64,000 nucleotides of DNA from Gemmatimonadales bacterium. Lineage in GTDB: Bacteria > Gemmatimonadota > Gemmatimonadetes > Palauibacterales > Palauibacteraceae. The stretch is taken from the NCBI GenBank assembly GCA_009840115.1, contig VXOJ01000016.1:1-64000 (forward strand). The letters are read 5' to 3'. A program made the translations under genes and the position numbers. A model generated the notes under the pieces. It worked only from the letters and a program-made list of their open reading frames with translations, made no database searches and was not told where the DNA came from. Each line of letters starts with the position of its first letter. The first letter of the stretch is position 1. Positions 18,834-26,520 of the stretch are shown one piece after another.

Positions 18834-21382
18834 CCACCCTCCCCGTTCGCCGACGCCCCGCGGCCGCCGCCGATCACGCGCTCGAACAACTCGTAGATGC
18901 GCCGGTATTCATCAGTCCACGACGAGGGCTCCGCGAAACCGTGGTTCTCCACCGGGTACACCGCCATCTCCCAGTTCTCCTTCCCCAGTTCTATGAGACG
19001 CTGGGCAAGGCGCACGACGTCGGAGAAATGCACGTTCGTGTCGTACATCCCGTGCGCGATGAGGAGGTGCCCCTCGAGGCCCTCGGCGAAGTAGATCGGG
19101 GAGGACTGGCGGTACGCCTCCTCGTCCTCGTGGGGGAGGTTGAGGATGCGGCTCGTGTACCAGTGGTTGTAGTGCGCCCAGTCGGTCACTGAGCGGAGCG
19201 CGCCGCCCGCCGCGAAGGACTGCGGCGCCGTGAAGAGCGCCATCAGCGTGATGAAGCCGCCGTAGGACCCGCCGTAGATCCCCATGCGGTCGGGGTCGAC
19301 GCCCTCCTCGCGGGCGAGGTACGCGGCGCCGTCCACCTGGTCGGAGAGGTCCCAGCCACCCATGTGCCGGTAGATCGCCGTGCGCCAGTCGCGGCCGTAG
19401 CCGGCGGAGCCCCGGTAGTCGATGTCGAGCACGGTGTAGCCCTGGGCCGCCAGGAAGTGGTGGAACATGTACTCGCGGTAGTAGTTCGACCACCAGTTGT
19501 GGACGTTGTGCAGGTATCCCGCCCCGTGGACGAAGATGACGCCGGCCCCGTTGGGTTCGACGCCGAAGTCGGCGGGCCGGTAGATGCGCGCGGGCACGGG
19601 CGTCCCGTCGCGGGCCTCGAAGTGCACGATCTCGGGCAGGAGCCAGGGGAAGCCGAGCCACGTCTCGGTGGGGGAGGTCGTGACCTGCGTCATCGCGGCG
19701 CCCGGCGCGGCGTCGGCGAGGTAGAGTTCGGGCGGGCGGTTCGCGCGCGAATGGAGGACGGCGAAGCGACGTCCGTCGGGCGACGGCGTGACGGTGAACG
19801 AGCCCTCTCCCTCGAGGAGCTGCACCCGGTCGGAGCCGTCGAAGCCCATGCGCCACGGGTGCTGGTCGAAGGGGGAGAGTTCGCTCGTCTGGAGGAGGAA
19901 GGCGTCCCATCCGTCCGGGATCGTCGCGCCCAGAACCTCCCACTCGCCAGCCGTGAGCGCCTCCTTGTCGCCGCCATCGGCGTCGACCGCGTACAGGTGG
20001 GAGTACCCCGTTTCCTCGCTCACATACCAGGCGCGCGGCACGTCGCCCGCGGCCTCCGCCGGGAGCCAGCCGATGCAGCCCGCGCCCTGGAAGCCGAAGC
20101 AGGGGCCGCCGACCCACGCCTCGTCGTGATGCGTGTCGAGCAGCGTCAGCGAGCCGGTCGCCGCTTCGAAGGCGTAGAGGCGCCACGTCTTGTAGTCGTA
20201 GTCCACGGCGAACACGAGCCCGTGGGAGCCCGCGTCGTTCCAGCCCGCGAAGCTCGCGACGGCGAGGCGATCGTCGGATGCCGCCTCGCCGGAACCGGCT
20301 TCGTCGGAGTCGGCCTCCGCGTCCGCCGACTCCGTCTCCTCCGAGTCCGCGTCCGAGCCGTCCCCCGTGAGGTCGAGCCAGGTCGCCTCGCCCGTCCCCG
20401 TGTCGACGACGGCGAGGCGCGAGACGCCCTGCTCGTCCCCGACCTTGGCCCTCATCTCCGTGTTCTCGGTGTAACCGGACTGCGTAACCCAGAGGGGGAT
20501 GTCCGTGCTCCGGCCCTCGCCCCCGAAGCCGCCGCGCGTGACGGTAACCGCGACGTGGCTGCCGGTGGGATCGGCGGCGAACGACTGCGCGCGCTCGCCC
20601 TGCGCGAGGTGCAGGGTCTCCCGTTGCCCGGCCTCCCGGAGCTCGCGCCGCTCGTCGGCCCGCTCCTCCCGGATGTCCTGCACGCGGATGTGCTCGAACA
20701 GCTCTCGCTGCTGCTCCTCGAGGAAGGCCTTGTGCCCCTCGGCCTCCGGGTCTTCGGGCTGCTCCGGACCGCCGACCGACGTGAGCTGCCGGATCTCGCC
20801 GTCGTCGATGTCGAAGGCGAAGAGGTTGTTCCCGCGGCGGAAGAAGATGGAGGCGCCGTCGCCGGAGAAGACGGGACTCATCTCGGCGTCCTGGGTGTGG
20901 GTCAGCCGCCGGGTCGCGGCGCCGTCCCGCTCGATCAGATAGAGGTCTCCGCCGGAGGACGTCACGCGCCAGCGGCCGTCCGGGGAGACGTCGCCCGGTG
21001 CGAGGATGGGGCCGAGGCGAAGTTCCTCCTCGTCATCGACCCGCTCCGGGGTGCCGCCGGTCGAACGGACACGGTAGAGGGCGCGCTGCTCGTGCCACTC
21101 GGCGCCGCCCGGGAGCCAGCGGAAGTAGATCCACTCGCCGTCGTCGGACCAGCTCACGCCGACGGGCGCCTGCCCGACGTGCTCGGAGCCCCGCATGATG
21201 GACTCGAGCGTGAGGGCGAACGCGTTGTCGCGCGCGGGGGCGGGCTCGAAGCTGGCAAGATTCTGCGCCTGGAGCGGCGGGGCGGCCGCCAGCGCGACCG
21301 CCGCCATGGCGGTCCACGCGGCGATCCGCCACGAAGCGGCACGCGACGCGGCGGGGGGGCAGAGCTTCGGGGAGTACTTCAC
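18830..21382 (-). CDS. Exported S9 (prolyl oligopeptidase/DPP IV-like) serine peptidase
   Basis: An 850-residue periplasmic peptidase. It has a signal peptide (AAWTAMAAVALAAAPPLQAQ), then a beta-propeller (~50-590) and an alpha/beta-hydrolase domain (~600-840). Catalytic Ser706 sits in GIYGGSYGGF, the acid in AHGMYDTNVHF, and the His in PVENHGF, in the right order. An unusual ~35-residue Asp/Glu/Ser-rich insertion lies in the propeller (around 20276-20360). The GTG start at 21382 follows GGAGGAGG and overlaps the upstream gene (GTGA). It removes dipeptides or cuts proline-containing peptides; this suggests peptide scavenging together with the exported neighbours. Confidence 0.92.
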   Translation of the reverse strand: MKYSPKLCPPAASRAASWRIAAWTAMAAVALAAAPPLQAQNLASFEPAPARDNAFALTLESIMRGSEHVGQAPVGVSWSDDGEWIYFRWLPGGAEWHEQRALYRVRSTGGTPERVDDEEELRLGPILAPGDVSPDGRWRVTSSGGDLYLIERDGAATRRLTHTQDAEMSPVFSGDGASIFFRRGNNLFAFDIDDGEIRQLTSVGGPEQPEDPEAEGHKAFLEEQQRELFEHIRVQDIREERADERRELREAGQRETLHLAQGERAQSFAADPTGSHVAVTVTRGGFGGEGRSTDIPLWVTQSGYTENTEMRAKVGDEQGVSRLAVVDTGTGEATWLDLTGDGSDADSEETESADAEADSDEAGSGEAASDDRLAVASFAGWNDAGSHGLVFAVDYDYKTWRLYAFEAATGSLTLLDTHHDEAWVGGPCFGFQGAGCIGWLPAEAAGDVPRAWYVSEETGYSHLYAVDADGGDKEALTAGEWEVLGATIPDGWDAFLLQTSELSPFDQHPWRMGFDGSDRVQLLEGEGSFTVTPSPDGRRFAVLHSRANRPPELYLADAAPGAAMTQVTTSPTETWLGFPWLLPEIVHFEARDGTPVPARIYRPADFGVEPNGAGVIFVHGAGYLHNVHNWWSNYYREYMFHHFLAAQGYTVLDIDYRGSAGYGRDWRTAIYRHMGGWDLSDQVDGAAYLAREEGVDPDRMGIYGGSYGGFITLMALFTAPQSFAAGGALRSVTDWAHYNHWYTSRILNLPHEDEEAYRQSSPIYFAEGLEGHLLIAHGMYDTNVHFSDVVRLAQRLIELGKENWEMAVYPVENHGFAEPSSWTDEYRRIYELFERVIGGGRGASANGEGG

Positions 21383-21978
21383 GGGGTACCTCCTCCGTTT
21401 CTGGAGGGCAGATACTGTCCCGGGATCGGCAGATCCGGCCGTTCCGCGGCCCAGTAGATCGTGACGACGTACCAGCGGTCGCCGTCGTGCATGAGCTGGA
21501 TCGAGTTGATGCCGCGCGCGAACGGTTCGGGGTCGTCCGCGGTGCGCTTCGAATCGTAGGTGGAGAACGCGTGCACCACGGGGCCGAAGCGCTCCTCGCT
21601 GCGGGCGATCTCCCGCTCGAAGAACCCGTTCTGTTCGAGGAAGCCGCCCGCCTGTTCGGCGTATTCGCCCGGGCTCCACACCTGGTAGCCGTGCTCGCCC
21701 TCCGGGGACCGGCCCGTGGGAATGAGGCGGGCCTCCGGGATGAACAGGGAGCGGAAGCGATCCCAGTCGCGCGCCTGCCCGGCCGGGCCCGAGATCACGT
21801 CGTAGAGCGCGGTCAGGATGCTGTCGACGGACTCCACGTCGGCGTGATCGGCGTCGGGCCAGCTCTCCGCCATGGCCACGTTGGCTCGGCCCTGCGCGAG
21901 GACGGGGGCGGGCGCCGCGAGCGCCAGGGGTCCGGCGGCCAGCGCGCCGAGGAGAAAGAGTGTACGCATTCGTCGCAT
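21379..21978 (-). CDS. Secreted NTF2-like (SnoaL/DUF4440-type) protein
   Basis: A 199-residue protein with a signal peptide (MRRMRTLFLLGALAAGPLAL, cleavage near VLAQ). The mature part has the helix-strand layout of NTF2-like folds: SVDSILTALYDVISG, DWDRFRSLFIPEARLI and a final GINSIQLMHDGDRWYVVTIYW. No catalytic set is visible. Its stop overlaps the GTG of the S9 peptidase gene, so both come from one transcript. An ATG at 21978 was chosen because the signal peptide starts there. Confidence 0.7.
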   Translation of the reverse strand: MRRMRTLFLLGALAAGPLALAAPAPVLAQGRANVAMAESWPDADHADVESVDSILTALYDVISGPAGQARDWDRFRSLFIPEARLIPTGRSPEGEHGYQVWSPGEYAEQAGGFLEQNGFFEREIARSEERFGPVVHAFSTYDSKRTADDPEPFARGINSIQLMHDGDRWYVVTIYWAAERPDLPIPGQYLPSRNGGGTP

Positions 21979-22074
21979 CGTTCCGCTCCGGGTGAGGGGG
22001 TTGGCATCCCCGAATCTAGCGTAGTGTCTCGGAAACCCGCGAGCGACGGAGAGCGCCGGGGCGCCGGCTCCCGG

Positions 22075-22103
22075 TTGCATTGGACGCGGGCCGGCTCTAC
22101 CGT
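22075..22103 (+). promoter_or_regulatory. Candidate promoter of tRNA-Arg
   Basis: TTGCAT (22075-22080), 17-bp spacer, TACCGT (22098-22103), placing initiation ~12 nt before the tRNA. Both boxes are only half-matching, so confidence is low; the position fits. Confidence 0.33.
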
Positions 22104-22121
22104 TTTTCGCTCGCGCCGCCC

Positions 22122-22195
22122 GCGCCCGTAGCTCAATTGGATAGAGCGTCTGACTTCGGATCAGAAGGCTGGGGGTTCGAGTCCTCCCGGGCGCA
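22122..22195 (+). tRNA. tRNA-Arg (anticodon TCG)
   Basis: A 74-nt cloverleaf. The acceptor stem GCGCCCG pairs with CGGGCGC (22188-22194), followed by discriminator A. D-arm GCTC...GAGC, anticodon stem TCTGA/TCAGA with loop CTTCGGA (anticodon TCG, reads CGA), and T-loop GGTTCGAGTCC are all present. The CCA end is not encoded. The less GC-rich block begins directly downstream. Confidence 0.96.
22184..22194 (+). repeat. Direct repeat, copy 1 (3' end of tRNA-Arg), possible attL
   Basis: CTCCCGGGCGC, the last 11 bases of the tRNA acceptor/T region, recurs exactly at 26538-26548, just beyond the last gene of the tRNA-adjacent block. Such tRNA-end duplications flank integrated elements. At this GC content an 11-nt match could still be chance. 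Confidence 0.4.
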
Positions 22196-22250
22196 TGATC
22201 CCCCGGCCGATGACGCCAGAGACTCATTCGACTCCGGTGACTCCGCAGAC

Positions 22251-22727
22251 ATGAAACCGAGTCCAGACACGCGACACAGCCGGCCCGCGACCCCTGCGCC
22301 GGCCGCCCAGTGCCCCATCGATCACGAGGCGGCCGAGCGCGCCGCGCGCGCACTGCCCGGCCCCGTGCGGCGGGCCGTCTTCCTGGGCGTGGGGAGCCTA
22401 AGCGTGAGCGCCGGCATCATCGGCATCGTGGTGCCGCTCTGGCCCACGACCTGCTTCCTCCTGCTCGCCGCGTGGTGCTTCGCGCGCAGTTCACCTCGCG
22501 CCGAGCGCTGGCTGTACGAGAACCGCCTCTTCGGCCGCTACCTCCACGCCTACCGGGAGCGCGGCGTGATCTCCACCCGCGTCCGGCGCGGCGCCACGAT
22601 CTTCCTGTGGAGCGCGATCCTCGTCTCGGCCGTATTCGCCGCCGGCCAGCTCTGGCTCGTCGCCCTCCTCCTGCTCGTCGCCGCCCTCGTCACCGCCCAC
22701 CTCTACTCCCTCCCCGGCGAAGGCTAG
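22251..22727 (+). CDS. YbaN/DUF454 family inner-membrane protein
   Basis: A 158-residue protein. After a ~40-residue hydrophilic N-terminus come the DUF454 hallmarks: a first membrane helix (VSAGIIGIVVPLWPTTCFLLL), the WCFARSSPRAERWLYENRLF motif and GRYLHAYRERGVIS, then two more hydrophobic segments (LWSAILVSAVFAAG; LVALLLLVAALV). The function of the family is unknown. The ATG at 22251 is taken because the frame upstream runs back into the tRNA. It is the first gene after tRNA-Arg and sits just before the HipA-like pair. Confidence 0.85.
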   Translation: MKPSPDTRHSRPATPAPAAQCPIDHEAAERAARALPGPVRRAVFLGVGSLSVSAGIIGIVVPLWPTTCFLLLAAWCFARSSPRAERWLYENRLFGRYLHAYRERGVISTRVRRGATIFLWSAILVSAVFAAGQLWLVALLLLVAALVTAHLYSLPGEG

Positions 22728-22745
22728 TTCGGCGAAGCGCCAATC

Positions 22746-23636
22746 GTGCACGAGAACTACCCCGTGGTCGTGGTGGATCCGGAATGGCGTGGACCGGAAG
22801 ACATGGGCACAAAGCAGAAGTTCTGGTATCGAGAAGCCGAGGGTCACGGACCGGCCTGGCTCTTCAAGTATCCGCAACCCAACACGGGTCAGCACTGGGC
22901 GGAGAAAATTGCGGCCGAAATCGCGCGAGCCCTGGACATCCAGCACGCCAGAACCGAACTGGCGGAGTTTGAGAGCGAGCGTGGGTCGGTCTCCGAGTCC
23001 TTCGCTCCAGGAAGCACCGAGCTGGTTCACGGAAACCAGGTCCTTGCCCGGACCGTCGAGGGCTACGACCGAACGGCAAGGTTCGGTCAGTCAGACCATT
23101 CGTTCAGCAACATCTGGACATCATTCGAACGGATCTTTCAGGAGCAAGCCGCAACCGAAAAAAACCGGACGGCGTTCGCCGGGTATCTGGTGTTGGACGC
23201 GGTGATCGGGAACACCGATCGCCATCACGAGAACTGGGGCTTCCTGCGGCGTCGCGTTGGAGAGGATTGGAGAGGTGGGCTTGCCCCGTCGTTCGATCAC
23301 GCCTCCTCGCTTGGGAGGGAGCTTCTTGACGAAAGGCGAGCCCTCCTGTTGGACGAGAAGAGGGTGGATTGGTATTCGGAGAGGGGTCGTGGAGGAATCC
23401 ACTGGTCGGGGGATGCGCGGTACGGTCCGAGTCCCCTAGAGCTGGTGCGCAAGGCGGCCGAGCAGCACGGGTCCTATTTCCGCAGTACCTTGGAACGTGC
23501 GGCCGCGTTGACTGATGCCCTCGTAACGGAGCTGGTACATCGCGTACCGGTTGATTGGATGTCGGATCCCGCACGGGCGTTTGTCGTCGAACTGATCTGC
23601 TACAATCGAGACCAGCTACGGGAGGTCGCTCGATGA
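22746..23636 (+). CDS. HipA-like serine/threonine kinase (kinase core only)
   Basis: A 296-residue protein with the motif order of the HipA C-terminal kinase (pfam HipA_C, PI3/4-kinase-like fold). A candidate ATP-binding Lys41 lies in FKYP, with a Glu-rich helix WAEKIAAEIARALDI (~51-65). The catalytic loop is N156-T-D158-R-H-H-E-N-W, and the metal site is PSFDHASSLG (D184). At 296 residues it is shorter than full HipA (~440), and the N-terminal subdomain is missing. A gene coupled to it by an ATGA overlap supplies a protein resembling that subdomain. No HipB-type DNA-binding partner is nearby. GTG start at 22746. The base composition is clearly less GC-rich than the flanks. Target and toxicity are unknown. 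Confidence 0.75.
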   Translation: MHENYPVVVVDPEWRGPEDMGTKQKFWYREAEGHGPAWLFKYPQPNTGQHWAEKIAAEIARALDIQHARTELAEFESERGSVSESFAPGSTELVHGNQVLARTVEGYDRTARFGQSDHSFSNIWTSFERIFQEQAATEKNRTAFAGYLVLDAVIGNTDRHHENWGFLRRRVGEDWRGGLAPSFDHASSLGRELLDERRALLLDEKRVDWYSERGRGGIHWSGDARYGPSPLELVRKAAEQHGSYFRSTLERAAALTDALVTELVHRVPVDWMSDPARAFVVELICYNRDQLREVAR

Positions 23637-24376
23637 CTCCGAAAACTCTGTTCCTGGCGTGGCAGGAAAAGGACAGGCGGCAGTGGTTCCCCGTCGGCCG
23701 TCTCGATGTGGACGTATCTCAACCGGAGTACCGGTTCCGCTACACCGGCGGCGCCAGGCGAGCCCGGGCCGAAGCAGGGTTTCCGCTGCTCGTCGAGTTC
23801 CCGGAGCTGGAGGAGGATTACAAGGCGTCGAGCCTGTTTCCGCTGTTTCAGAACCGAGTGATCAACCCCGGCAGGCCGGACCTGAGGGACTACCTTCGCA
23901 ATCTGGACTTGGATCATAAGGCCGACCCGATCGAGATCCTGGCGGCGAACGGTGGTTTTCGTCAGACGGATGCCTACGAGGTCTTCCCGAAGATTGAGAG
24001 AGACGCGGACGGATCGTTTTTGTGCCGGTTCTTCCTCCACGGTTGGCGGCACGTCAACTCCGCGGCGAAGGAGCGTCTCAAGCGTCTGATGCCTGGAGAA
24101 GCGTTATACGTCACGTTGGAGCTCACCAATCCGGTCACCGGGTTCGCCGTCCAGATCCAGACCGAGGACTACTTCATGATCGGTTGGGCGCCTCGCTATC
24201 TGGCCGCCGACCTGGCGATGGCCATGGCGGGAGTGCCTGACCAATACTCCGCGCGAGTCGTGCGGATCAATCCGCAGCCCGCACCTTCCAAGCAGCGTGT
24301 TCTCATTGAGATGAAGGGTCGGTGGGACGGCCATGAGCCGATGAGCGGGCGCGACTATATTCCCGTGGTGGACTAG
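23633..24376 (+). CDS. HIRAN-domain protein with HipA N-subdomain-like region
   Basis: A 247-residue protein starting at ATG 23633 (ATGA overlap with the kinase gene). Residues ~5-90 (FLAWQEKDRRQWFPVGRLDV, then YRFRYTGGARRARAEAGFPL, then SSLFPLFQNRV) follow the layout of the HipA N-terminal subdomain: a strand with VGRL, an F-x-Y segment, a PL-x-FP segment and an FF/N-type end. Residues ~130-195 (FFLHGWRHVNSAAKERLKRL, then NPVTGFAVQIQT, then GWAPRYLAADL) look like a HIRAN domain, known from Rad5/HLTF where it binds DNA 3' ends. The combination suggests a split kinase whose regulatory half senses DNA. Domain matches are by eye; the HipA-like part is the less certain. Confidence 0.65.
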   Translation: MTPKTLFLAWQEKDRRQWFPVGRLDVDVSQPEYRFRYTGGARRARAEAGFPLLVEFPELEEDYKASSLFPLFQNRVINPGRPDLRDYLRNLDLDHKADPIEILAANGGFRQTDAYEVFPKIERDADGSFLCRFFLHGWRHVNSAAKERLKRLMPGEALYVTLELTNPVTGFAVQIQTEDYFMIGWAPRYLAADLAMAMAGVPDQYSARVVRINPQPAPSKQRVLIEMKGRWDGHEPMSGRDYIPVVD

Positions 24377-24483
24377 GGCAGGATACCGCAACGTAATCGC
24401 CGGCCCCCCGCTACGCGGTGCTGTGCTTCCTGCCTGGCGCCGCCATGTGTTCGCCGGTCCTTTGCCGCGTGTCGAGGAAACCT

Positions 24484-25386
24484 CTATCGCAGCGCCCAGA
24501 GCTTCGTGCTCGCGTCGTATGTCACGACACCCTTCCGCTTCAGGTATTGCTGCGCGTTCCTCACCCCGTGTTTCCACCGCTTCCCGTAGCGCTCGCCGTT
24601 GATGACGAGTTCCTCGGAGTCGTCGCAGAGATCCGGTAACAGCCGACCAACCTCCTCGTTGATCGCAGTTGTGGGTTGCGGCCCGCGCGCCAGCACAAAG
24701 CGAATTGCCTCGCCGAAGACGGAGTTCGCGCTTCTGTTTCCAACCTGTGCCCCAACGAACCGAGGTCTGGCGCCGCGCATGATCGTCCTGAATCTCGCTC
24801 GCGGCTCATGCTCCGCATCTTCGTCGGCCTTCCTTCTGGCTTGGCGGAGATCGGTCTCGATGGATGCAAGTTCGCCGAGCGCAAATCGACTGACCTGATT
24901 CCCCAAGCGAACGAACGAGTTCATGTCGTCGCGAATCGTGCGCACAATCGAAGGGTCGCGGAGCATCACGCCATACTCGAGGTTCGTGTCGAGGCCCGCG
25001 CGAGTAAGGTTGCCCGACGTCACGATCGCCACCTTCTCATCGGCTATGAAGACCTTTGCGTGGAGGTTAGGTAGTGCGAACACGCGTGCCTTTTCGGACT
25101 GTTCCGCGAAGTGGACCAGGGCGGTCACGTCCAGCGCGGATGAAGCGACCGCTTCCGCCCTGATCGCGGTAAGTGTGACCAGTGCAACATCCGGTGCAAG
25201 CTGGCGACGGAACCAGACGGCGGCGGAATATGTGATGAAGGGGACCGCGACCACCATGGATTGGCGAGCGCTATTGGCCATATCGGCCAACTCGGCACGC
25301 CAGCCCGGGCCGAGGAGTTGCGTCCGTTGACCGGCCCCAGCCGTCCTCGCTGTCTCACCTTCCCACGTGTCGGGCGTCACGGACAT
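24484..25386 (-). CDS. Phospholipase D-like nuclease-family protein
   Basis: A 300-residue protein with one PLD (HKD-type) motif: H109-A-K111-V-F-I-A-D116, followed by IVTSGNLTRAGLDTNLEYGV (S124, N126, E138), the usual PLD active-site continuation. One motif per chain implies a homodimeric active site, as in Nuc and BfiI-type nucleases. The C-terminal ~120 residues (VFGEAIRFVLARGPQPTTAI, then WKHGVRNAQQYLKRKGVVTY) look like a winged-helix DNA-binding region. Last gene of a four-gene minus-strand operon that begins with VapB/VapC; its start overlaps the preceding stop by 10 nt. It is probably a restriction- or defence-type nuclease, though substrate and trigger are not visible. Confidence 0.75.
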   Translation of the reverse strand: MSVTPDTWEGETARTAGAGQRTQLLGPGWRAELADMANSARQSMVVAVPFITYSAAVWFRRQLAPDVALVTLTAIRAEAVASSALDVTALVHFAEQSEKARVFALPNLHAKVFIADEKVAIVTSGNLTRAGLDTNLEYGVMLRDPSIVRTIRDDMNSFVRLGNQVSRFALGELASIETDLRQARRKADEDAEHEPRARFRTIMRGARPRFVGAQVGNRSANSVFGEAIRFVLARGPQPTTAINEEVGRLLPDLCDDSEELVINGERYGKRWKHGVRNAQQYLKRKGVVTYDASTKLWALR

Positions 25387-25778
25387 GGCAGGCGTTTCCG
25401 GTCCAGCCCTCGCCAGATATCCCAGCCGTTCGATGCATCCGCGACGGCCGCCATCACTGCCGCCACTTCATCAGCCGTTCGGCCCTCAGCATCATTCCAC
25501 TTCCCGGCGTCACCGATGTGGGCTTCCAGGAGCAATTCCAGACGGGCGGTGCTGACATACGGGCGTGTGTCGTTGGCGGCGTACATGGCGCCGACGGCGC
25601 ACCACCGTACGGCTGCCTGATCTTCCGGATCACAGGTGCACCAATCGGCATCCGCGGCGATATCGCCTTGGATCCAGCCGCGTCGGACCAGTGCTGCCGC
25701 GTTCCGGATGATGCGACGCGCTTCCACGTATTCGGACCTTCCATTTGGCTTCATCAGCGCCTTCCGTTGTTTGGTCAA
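25377..25778 (-). CDS. Small unknown protein, possibly DUF6197-like
   Basis: A 133-residue protein with paired Trp/Cys motifs (RRGWIQGDIAADADWCTCDP; AAVRWCAVGAMYAAND) and a C-terminal WNDAEGRTADEVAAVMAAVA segment. The WC-xx-GA pattern recalls DUF6197 proteins, but I am not certain. The start is taken as TTG 25778, which makes a TTGA overlap with the vapC stop; an in-frame ATG at 25754 is the alternative. It sits between vapC and the PLD gene in a fully overlapping operon, so it may be an immunity, adaptor or sensor component. No catalytic residues are recognised. Confidence 0.55.
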   Translation of the reverse strand: MTKQRKALMKPNGRSEYVEARRIIRNAAALVRRGWIQGDIAADADWCTCDPEDQAAVRWCAVGAMYAANDTRPYVSTARLELLLEAHIGDAGKWNDAEGRTADEVAAVMAAVADASNGWDIWRGLDRKRLPCP

Positions 25779-26245
25779 CTATTCGCATCGTGCGGTACCT
25801 CTGAATGTACGCGGGACGGTGCACTGGTTTCCGGCCCCGGCGGAGTGATGATTCGGCAGGCGGGCCCGGGGGCCCGCGCAAGCCGGCGATCAAGCGTCAA
25901 CAGGGGGCATGAAAGCGCTTCGGCAAGCGCCACGTACCATCCATCGTAAATGCTGAGGTTGTGGCGCAGTTCCCAGACGCGATCGGCTAGAGGTTCGAAC
26001 GGGAACGGCTCGATATCGAGCGTCAGCAGGTCGCGGCGGGCGAGATTGACCTCGGAGGTCTCCAGCCGTTCGGCAAGCTCCAGCCGGCGAAGAACGTTGC
26101 TCGCTTCCGCGAGGGCGATCTGTGGGCCCGCTAGGGCACGGCCTTCGCGAGTTGCCTCCGCTATGGCAGCTTCCGACCAGGCGCCGTCCGTCCCGAGGTC
26201 GGCTACCGCCGCCGCGAGGACCGAGGCATCAACAACGACCGTCAC
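25775..26245 (-). CDS. vapC: VapC-family PIN-domain toxin
   Basis: A 156-residue PIN-domain ribonuclease. The acidic residues that bind metal are in place: D6 in VTVVVDASVL, the Glu in ALAEASNVLRRLEL, the Asp in LSIYDGWYVALAEAL, and the final Asp in PLLTLDRRLARA. VapC toxins cut tRNA or rRNA when their antitoxin is degraded. The start is the GTG at 26245, in a GTGA overlap with the antitoxin stop. The antitoxin-first order and coupling are typical of FitAB/VapBC modules. The ~20-residue tail after the PIN fold is not conserved. Confidence 0.88.
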   Translation of the reverse strand: MTVVVDASVLAAAVADLGTDGAWSEAAIAEATREGRALAGPQIALAEASNVLRRLELAERLETSEVNLARRDLLTLDIEPFPFEPLADRVWELRHNLSIYDGWYVALAEALSCPLLTLDRRLARAPGPACRIITPPGPETSAPSRVHSEVPHDANS

Positions 26246-26478
26246 TTCCGGTCGGCGTCTCGCGCCTGCAGGATGCTCTCGGTGGTCACCCGATTGGTCG
26301 ACAGCCGCTTGCGGGCGCGAACGCTCTCGACCCACTCCTCAACGGTCGGCTTCGCTACCAACCGCGTGAGTTCGCCGCGCAGATACCGCTGCATCGACTG
26401 GCCGCGAGAAGCCGCGCGCACCTTCAGCCGGTCACGCACTTCCTCGGGGACGTCTCGAATCGTGATTTGAACACTCAT
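26242..26478 (-). CDS. vapB: FitA/VapB-type ribbon-helix-helix antitoxin
   Basis: A 78-residue antitoxin. The N-terminus MSVQITIRDVPEEVRDRLKV, then SRGQSMQRYLRGEL, is a ribbon-helix-helix DNA-binding domain of the FitA type. The C-terminal half (VEEWVESVRARKRL) is the part expected to wrap the PIN toxin. It precedes vapC with a GTGA overlap. The ATG at 26478 was chosen over an upstream in-frame ATG because it begins the RHH strand and lies at the predicted transcription start. Two TGACATC repeats at the promoter suggest autorepression by the VapBC complex. Confidence 0.85.
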   Translation of the reverse strand: MSVQITIRDVPEEVRDRLKVRAASRGQSMQRYLRGELTRLVAKPTVEEWVESVRARKRLSTNRVTTESILQARDADRK

Positions 26479-26513
26479 GACATCATTTTGACATCGGCAG
26501 CATCGTTTCGCAA
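26478..26513 (-). promoter_or_regulatory. vapBC promoter with direct-repeat operator
   Basis: On the minus strand: TTGCGA (26513-26508), 17-bp spacer, CAAAAT (26490-26485). Initiation would fall at or next to the vapB ATG (26478), so the mRNA may be leaderless. On the plus strand TGACATC occurs at 26478-26484 and 26489-26495, exactly 11 bp apart (one helical turn) and straddling the -10 box, a fitting site for a ribbon-helix-helix repressor. Confidence 0.5.
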
Positions 26514-26520
26514 GCACGCG

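Follow-up and report, generated by a model that had tools for sequence, protein, structure and literature searches.

The hipIN module, in which a short HipA-family Ser/Thr kinase (HipI) is followed by the gene for a HipS-like plus HIRAN partner (HipN), was named in 2021 by Gerdes, Baerentsen, and Brodersen (mBio; PMC8262856), along with the two domains of HipN and the related protein HipL. Here, we analyze such a gene pair in a 64,000-nucleotide window, i.e., positions 1 to 64,000 of contig VXOJ01000016.1 (assembly GCA_009840115.1) from a Gemmatimonadales bacterium, for which an original prediction had described a split HipA-like kinase coupled to a HIRAN-bearing partner. The pair is a hipIN module, and thus belongs to an already published system and not to a new one; we read it, with a probability of about 0.6, as a toxin-antitoxin-like and probably anti-phage kinase switch that is carried as mobile cargo. 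To the published account, our analysis adds a multi-phylum hipIN lineage, a contrast between HIRAN pockets, and a prophage placement.

In the portions of PMC8262856 that deal with this system, neutralization of HipI by HipN is described as putative, and DNA-end sensing leading to abortive infection has already been proposed for hipIN. Most bacterial HIRAN domains are reported there to lack an equivalent of HLTF Phe142, and most DNA-binding motifs to be retained, with the Actinobacteria HipN as the exception. The published HipI clades come from Actinobacteria, Firmicutes, Proteobacteria, and Cyanobacteria, with neither "Gemmatimonad-" nor "Acidobacteria" occurring as a term in the main text; the lineage of the window, in contrast, extends to many additional phyla, and its HIRAN pocket is altered. 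An experimental test of hipIN was not found in the open-licence literature that we searched. As regards related genes, HIRAN and HipA genes were reported in 2025 beside approximately one-third of diDNase genes, in a paper that mentions a predicted phage-defence role for these genes (PMC11706625), and DefensePredictor in 2026 validated another HipA-kinase pair, HipAD, with a DUF3037/DUF1829 partner (PMC13092281).

Identity of the gene pair

The stop codon of hipI and the start codon of hipN share an ATGA at 23633, and the coordinates, strand, and overlap are exactly those of the original prediction (Table 1). At 296 amino acids (aa), HipI fits the length of 279 to 321 aa given jointly for HipG, HipI, HipJ, and HipM (PMC8262856), and its HipA_C match (Pfam; E = 2.9e-13) covers only aa 21 to 202, in line with the proposed absence of an N-terminal subdomain; the proposed HipA_C motifs NTDRHHENW and PSFDHASS are present at aa 156 to 164 and 181 to 188. 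In addition to the HIRAN domain of HipN, which passes its family cut-off, Pfam gave an N-subdomain match (Couple_hipA) in its N-terminal part at E = 0.019, under the family cut-off, and an NCBIfam search of the pair returned nothing useful. PADLOC matched both proteins over nearly their full length, HipI to PDC-M03A (E = 9.6e-78) and HipN to PDC-M03B (E = 1.2e-77); PDC-M03 is a candidate label only, a name not found in the literature searched. Because of these two matches and the published description (Hip kinase motifs, no N-subdomain-1, and a downstream HipS-like plus HIRAN gene, all found in the window pair), we assign the pair to hipIN. By Pfam, the host genome holds a single HipA_C copy.

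Like HipBST, the pair has a short kinase and a detached HipS lid; it differs in that no HipB was found, the upstream gene encodes a DUF454 protein, and the lid gene lies downstream rather than upstream and is fused to HIRAN. It also differs from HipBA, with no HipB-type antitoxin gene among the seven flanking open reading frames (ORFs) scanned, the ORF at 21382–22353 giving no Pfam match, and the nearby FitA-like RHH gene adjoining a PIN gene and not the kinase. Hence, the proposed lack of a nearby HipB repressor held for these seven ORFs, and the architecture is distinct from both systems, as had been claimed. HipL has the identical three domains, but in one chain instead of two genes.

Table 1. 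Features of the hipIN locus and its insertion site, in window coordinates.
Feature	Position	Strand	Basis
tRNA-Arg(TCG) beside variable site	22122..22195	+	ARAGORN
DUF454 gene, conserved left flank	22251..22727	+	Pfam 3.1e-34; in 14/17 genus genomes
Lineage-specific insert with hipIN, PLD-like gene, and DUF6197 gene	22728..25835	.	blastn of relatives
hipI, short HipA-family Ser/Thr kinase without N-subdomain-1	22746..23636	+	296 aa, GTG start, TGA stop; Pfam, PADLOC, CtkA match
Gly-rich-loop region MGTKQKFW with T22, candidate autophosphorylation site	22803..22826	+	Alignment counts; analogy with HipT/HipA
Catalytic loop NTDRHHENW; D158, N163 invariant	23211..23237	+	76/76 aligned kinases
Mg-binding motif FDHASS; D184 invariant	23292..23309	+	76/76 aligned kinases
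hipN, HipS-like plus HIRAN partner	23633..24376	+	247 aa, ATG start, TAG stop; PADLOC PDC-M03B, predicted structure
HipS-like domain, residues 3-121, predicted missing lid of the kinase	23639..23995	+	VIA-align Z 11.8 (7vkb_B), 11.6 (8ezr_A), 10.9 (7ab3_E)
HIRAN domain, residues 124-240, altered pocket motif TNPVTGFAVQIQT replacing HLTF-type N-P-Y-D-x-x-A-I	24002..24352	+	Pfam HIRAN 6.7e-7 (aa 130-227); Z 10.9 to 4xzf_A; motif counts

Predicted fold of HipN

The structure of HipN was predicted from a 77-row alignment (A3, from which locus L064, with an interrupted hipN, was left out) with a predicted local distance difference test (pLDDT) score of 92.2 and a predicted template-modelling (pTM) score of 0.89, and the model was searched with Foldseek and VIA-align. 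Residues 3 to 121 matched 7vkb_B (root-mean-square deviation [rmsd] 2.1 over 101 aligned residues; an entry titled only "a bacterial kinase complex"), 8ezr_A from the Legionella HipS-HipT complex, and 7ab3_E from Escherichia coli HipBST (Z 10.9 to 11.8); from chain length and entry titles, these chains of approximately 100 residues would be the HipS chains. Residues 124 to 239 matched the HIRAN domain of HLTF (4xzf_A, with rmsd 3.3 over 105 aligned residues; 4s0n_A, Z 10.8) and, at Z 8.7, that of Kluyveromyces lactis Rad5, so that in fold the domain is of the HLTF/Rad5 kind (4xzf, 4s0n, 6l8n). The top fold match of the HIRAN part was 3k2y, an uncharacterised Lactobacillus protein (Z 13.3), which is uninformative on function. 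As a sequence profile, the same 77 rows matched none of the solved chains at E ≤ 10, whereas the fold search did find matches. Because of these fold matches, the claim that the partner joins the missing HipA subdomain to a HIRAN domain is correct at the level of predicted structure, a lid of the HipA N-subdomain type and a HIRAN fold both being present in the second protein.

Coupling of kinase and partner

Among 298 genomes of the phylum, the kinase was found in nine and the partner in the identical nine, including the window genome; contig ends cut the pair in G148, where the partner continues on another contig, and in G279, where 34 partner residues are left. In a broader collection, comprising the best 80 of 415 kinase relatives (at least 6 of which sit on contigs that match contigs of the nine in length, so that the sets overlap), the partner lay directly downstream at 77/77 testable loci, with the other three reaching a contig edge before a scorable partner. 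Stop and start codons overlapped by 4 bases in 52/77 and by 1 base in 11/77, using start codons chosen by script. Viral contigs contained both parts at 58/58 kinase loci, many of them near-identical, one of which is a fusion (see below). This near-absolute adjacency, which had been proposed as a check on the original prediction, excludes a chance pairing. Judged by record title, the hosts of the genome loci include Gemmatimonadota, Latescibacterota, Acidobacteriota, Verrucomicrobiota, Chloroflexota, Omnitrophota, Planctomycetota, Nitrospirota, and Pseudomonadota.

Active site and relatives of HipI

Across 76 aligned kinases (alignment A4, which includes that of the window and leaves out five interrupted ones), K41, N156, D158, R159, H160, N163, W164, D184, H185, and S188 are invariant. 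The active site is thus intact, and the window kinase is expected to be active. Residue 22 is Ser or Thr in 70/76, within the region pattern MG[TS]KxKFW, a count biased by the use of this pattern as one of the searches; by analogy with HipT and HipA, T22 would be a candidate autophosphorylation site. The only solved match of the kinase profile at E ≤ 0.01 was CtkA (E = 7.6e-13). Helicobacter CtkA is the nearest solved structure of these kinases, ahead of HipA and HipT, suggesting that it may belong among the short clade XI kinases.

Two of the nine kinases from the phylum are interrupted (L006, L010), and in one of these genomes (G127) hipN is likewise in two pieces. Preferential decay of the toxin was considered, with five interrupted kinases versus one interrupted hipN among 77 two-gene loci, and was not used (Fisher P = 0.21; errors in metagenome-assembled genomes are possible).

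A natural fusion carries kinase, HipS-like part, and HIRAN in a single frame of 515 residues on a viral contig (L155, 9965–11511), and thus has the composition of HipL. The frame has no ATG at the expected start, with an ATC following a GAGGTG stretch. Its model was only fair (pLDDT 80, pTM 0.63); it served for fold matching of the kinase and HIRAN parts, and no docking geometry was read from it. The modelled kinase part matched CtkA at Z 26 to 27 versus 15 to 17 for HipT and HipA, and the C-terminal part matched HIRAN at Z 11; the middle, HipS-like part had no match among the 50 fold rows listed. The alignment used (A7; 25 copies of L155, 12 HipN, and 25 kinases) placed the halves correctly; two earlier mixed alignments were rejected, as A5 set HipN rows on the kinase half and A6 misplaced their first ~50 residues. 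Further HipL fusions were sought in viral contigs and not found.

The HIRAN pocket and DNA-end sensing

In HLTF, Y72 and Y93 lie at the border of the cavity that takes up DNA, where they stack on the bound dinucleotide (Achar et al. 2015; PMC4666394), and the double substitution N90A-N91A was used in 2024 to inactivate the HIRAN domain (PMC11237066). For the register of the pocket, HLTF chains were matched to a profile of prophage-type HipN through N-x-Y-D (N-P-Y-D in HLTF; E ~0.1), and this profile was then aligned to the window protein with MAFFT; the fold match spans the pocket stretch without giving a residue register. In this alignment, V168 and T169 of the window HipN take the places of HLTF Tyr93 and Asp94. 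Throughout the window lineage, the Tyr93 place holds Ala, Val, or another residue (aromatic in 0/77) and Thr predominates at the Asp94 place (Asp in 4/77), while the Asn aligned with HLTF N91 is kept in 73/77. Instead of the HLTF-type N-x-Y-D, the lineage has a highly conserved motif, N-P-[AV]-T-x-x-A-V-Q-I-Q-T-x-D, of which the portion A-V-Q-x-Q-T-x-D is new (A in 74, Q174 in 74, Q176 in 68, T in 70, and D179 in 75 of 77). H140 may be a counterpart of Tyr72; this place holds H in 51, Y in 12, and R in 9 of the 77.

HipN from viral contigs, a phage (L101), and a plasmid (L102) is mostly of the other type, with N-x-[YFH]-D kept at 55 of 61 distinct loci, many of which are near-identical; these loci derive from 68 entries, L161 to L167 being repeat copies of the same contigs. 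The remaining six comprise L156, with N-K-I-D, and five of the altered type (L103 to L106 and L168). An alignment of prophage-type HipNs (A9) with Asp in 24/24 rows is not independent of this result, since its rows were chosen with the types already known, to the exclusion of three viral rows of the altered type. On a 62-row kinase tree, which holds only relatives found in this analysis, the pocket types need 2 changes versus 17.6 in shuffles. Genome rows were at first labelled by lineage; relabelling by HipN sequence, with L052 (without HipN) and L064 (outside A3) dropped, leaves the count at 2. Twenty prophage-type rows cluster together with support of 100/99; L156 sits inside this cluster on a long branch, and the fusion L155 stands apart on a very long branch. 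We regard this as sequence-based evidence for the two pocket types travelling with their kinases.

These residues bear on the strongest rival explanation, in which HipN is a true DNA-end sensor whose HIRAN domain binds 3′ ends or single-stranded DNA (ssDNA) from phage replication or damage and thereby frees or activates HipI. We consider this possible but lean away from it. The fold match to DNA-bound HLTF (Z 10.9), the kept Asn, and the N-x-[YFH]-D of most viral, phage, and plasmid loci would all fit such a sensor, as would the existence of other immune regulators switched by ssDNA, e.g., CapK (PMC13373217). Against it stands the window lineage itself, in which the place of one of the two stacking tyrosines is never aromatic and that of Asp94 rarely Asp. 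Since the aligned clamp residues differ, it is improbable that a plain 3′ DNA end, gripped in the HLTF way, is the signal in this lineage; for the window copy, this argues against an end sensor that is literally HLTF-like, with other modes of DNA binding unaffected by the argument. Thus, of the proposal that the regulator senses damaged or foreign DNA, the HIRAN fold stood up, and the sensing is weakened for the window copy.

More tentatively still, the large multi-phylum lineage may have a re-tooled HIRAN pocket through which HipN would sense a modified or capped end, a short oligonucleotide, or a phage protein; if true, this would define two hipIN subtypes with different triggers. The sharp contrast between HLTF-like and altered pockets makes the idea of a DNA-end sensor directly testable in a laboratory strain.

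Prophage, phage, and plasmid setting

In E. coli, a relative is present in 21 of 5426 genomes, at 22 places, none of them on a plasmid. All seven E. coli loci viewed (from these 21 genomes) lie directly beside a P2-type portal gene, incomplete in one, with a replication endonuclease gene on the other side in the six regions reaching that far; the seventh region starts after that point. This is the gpA-gpQ defence hotspot of P2 prophages (PMC9122126; also PMC9519451), such that a hipIN homologue is readily at hand in E. coli P2-type prophages, at a site already known for defence. In two of the seven, hipIN is adjoined by a pair of SIR2 and ATP-binding genes.

Four records of PM2-like Vibrio phages contain the pair, beside the integrase gene in the two viewed. 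These are Vinavirales phages of Vibrio cyclitrophicus, with hipIN at the integrase end (L101, 10953–12646; L210, 3015–4729), likely a cargo slot of these phages. The pair also stands beside the integrase gene in Clostridioides phage phiCDKH02. Plasmid records with hipIN numbered five, or eight by a second query. On a Nostoc plasmid (L102, 217–4981), hipIN adjoins DUF499 and DUF1156 genes, neighbours that we presume to be reminiscent of defence clusters.

Among the nearest flanking ORFs of the genome loci, a type I restriction-modification specificity domain was found in 8/119 (139 ORFs, of which 121 were kept after leaving out those of >900 aa, and two kinase fragments were then dropped). In the control, 61 whole genomes, all of a single phylum, contained 41 matched stretches, which implies a background far below 8/119. 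Taken together with the prophage loci, the placement of the module supports a mobile defence role.

An alternative that this placement bears upon is a plain addiction module, in which the pair would kill any cell losing the mobile element or variable locus and so keep that DNA in place, phage playing no part. The plasmid cases, though few, the prophages, and the chromosomal insert beside a PIN/RHH pair of toxin-antitoxin type would be in keeping with such a role. It is nonetheless unlikely, as the seven E. coli loci viewed all share a single phage defence spot, plasmids account for none of the 22 E. coli places, and an extra HIRAN domain would be unneeded for addiction.

Proposed mechanism

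If the pair is an anti-phage kinase switch, the HipS-like domain of HipN would dock on HipI as a detached lid and hold it off. An infection-linked signal, read by the HIRAN domain, would then release or re-pose the lid. Free HipI would in turn phosphorylate an essential target, most likely one in the translation machinery as with HipA and HipT, such that growth would stop before the phage spreads.

Several points weigh against this proposal. Clade XI, which includes hipIN, is listed in Table 1 of PMC8262856 without an experimentally analysed module. The nearest solved kinase by sequence is CtkA and not HipA or HipT, so that homology does not point to a target in translation. Interrupted kinase frames occur at 5/80 genome loci. 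The neighbour test compares genomes from many phyla with a single-phylum control, using ORFs from a simple script; any one Pfam family is seen in 8 of the 119 neighbours at most, with housekeeping families such as class I tRNA synthetase among those matched. Closeness to defence genes is an association only.

A non-toxic signalling pair, in which HipI, controlled by HipN, would phosphorylate a protein of repair or regulation rather than act as a growth-stopping toxin, would suit the position of CtkA as the only solved sequence relative and the fold preference of L155 (Z 27 to CtkA), but is very improbable given that a patchy spread (9/298 genomes) and mobile-element carriage would be unusual for housekeeping signalling and that the paired overlap architecture resembles that of toxin-antitoxin genes.

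Insertion site in the genus

The chromosomal site was compared in 12 of the 13 congeners with the DUF454 flank (G299 was left out). The insert (3.1 kb) is missing in seven of these, in which its flanks lie within ~100 bases of each other, and a larger gap, to 26555 or 26563, is seen in three. Of the others, G148 has hipIN at the same site but, judging by its two contigs, lacks the PLD-like gene, and G042 carries a different insert with two ORFs that resemble a restriction-modification pair (Mrr_cat nuclease and N6_N4 DNA methylase), its hipIN sitting elsewhere. The GC content of hipIN is 61.2% versus 71.0% for the window outside the insert, a value lower than in all 288 control windows, which overlap. 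The low GC content and the absence of the insert from congeners support mobility of the module, and the pair in G042 is in keeping with a defence role for the site.

In the genus, the position following tRNA-Arg/DUF454 is thus a small variable hotspot (22728–25835 in the window; L201, 2468–5241), which may be empty or occupied by hipIN, by hipIN with the PLD-like and DUF6197 genes, or by the Mrr-type nuclease with the DNA methylase. The PLD-like gene (24484–25386, reverse strand) lies downstream of hipN and faces it; it was unmatched at E ≤ 1e-10 across the 16 remaining genomes of the genus, and its product may be an additional effector of defence. Where the insert ends on the right, there are PIN-domain and FitA-like RHH genes (25775–26517, reverse strand) that would make up a VapBC/FitAB-type pair, and in seven congeners this PIN/RHH DNA adjoins DUF454 without hipIN.

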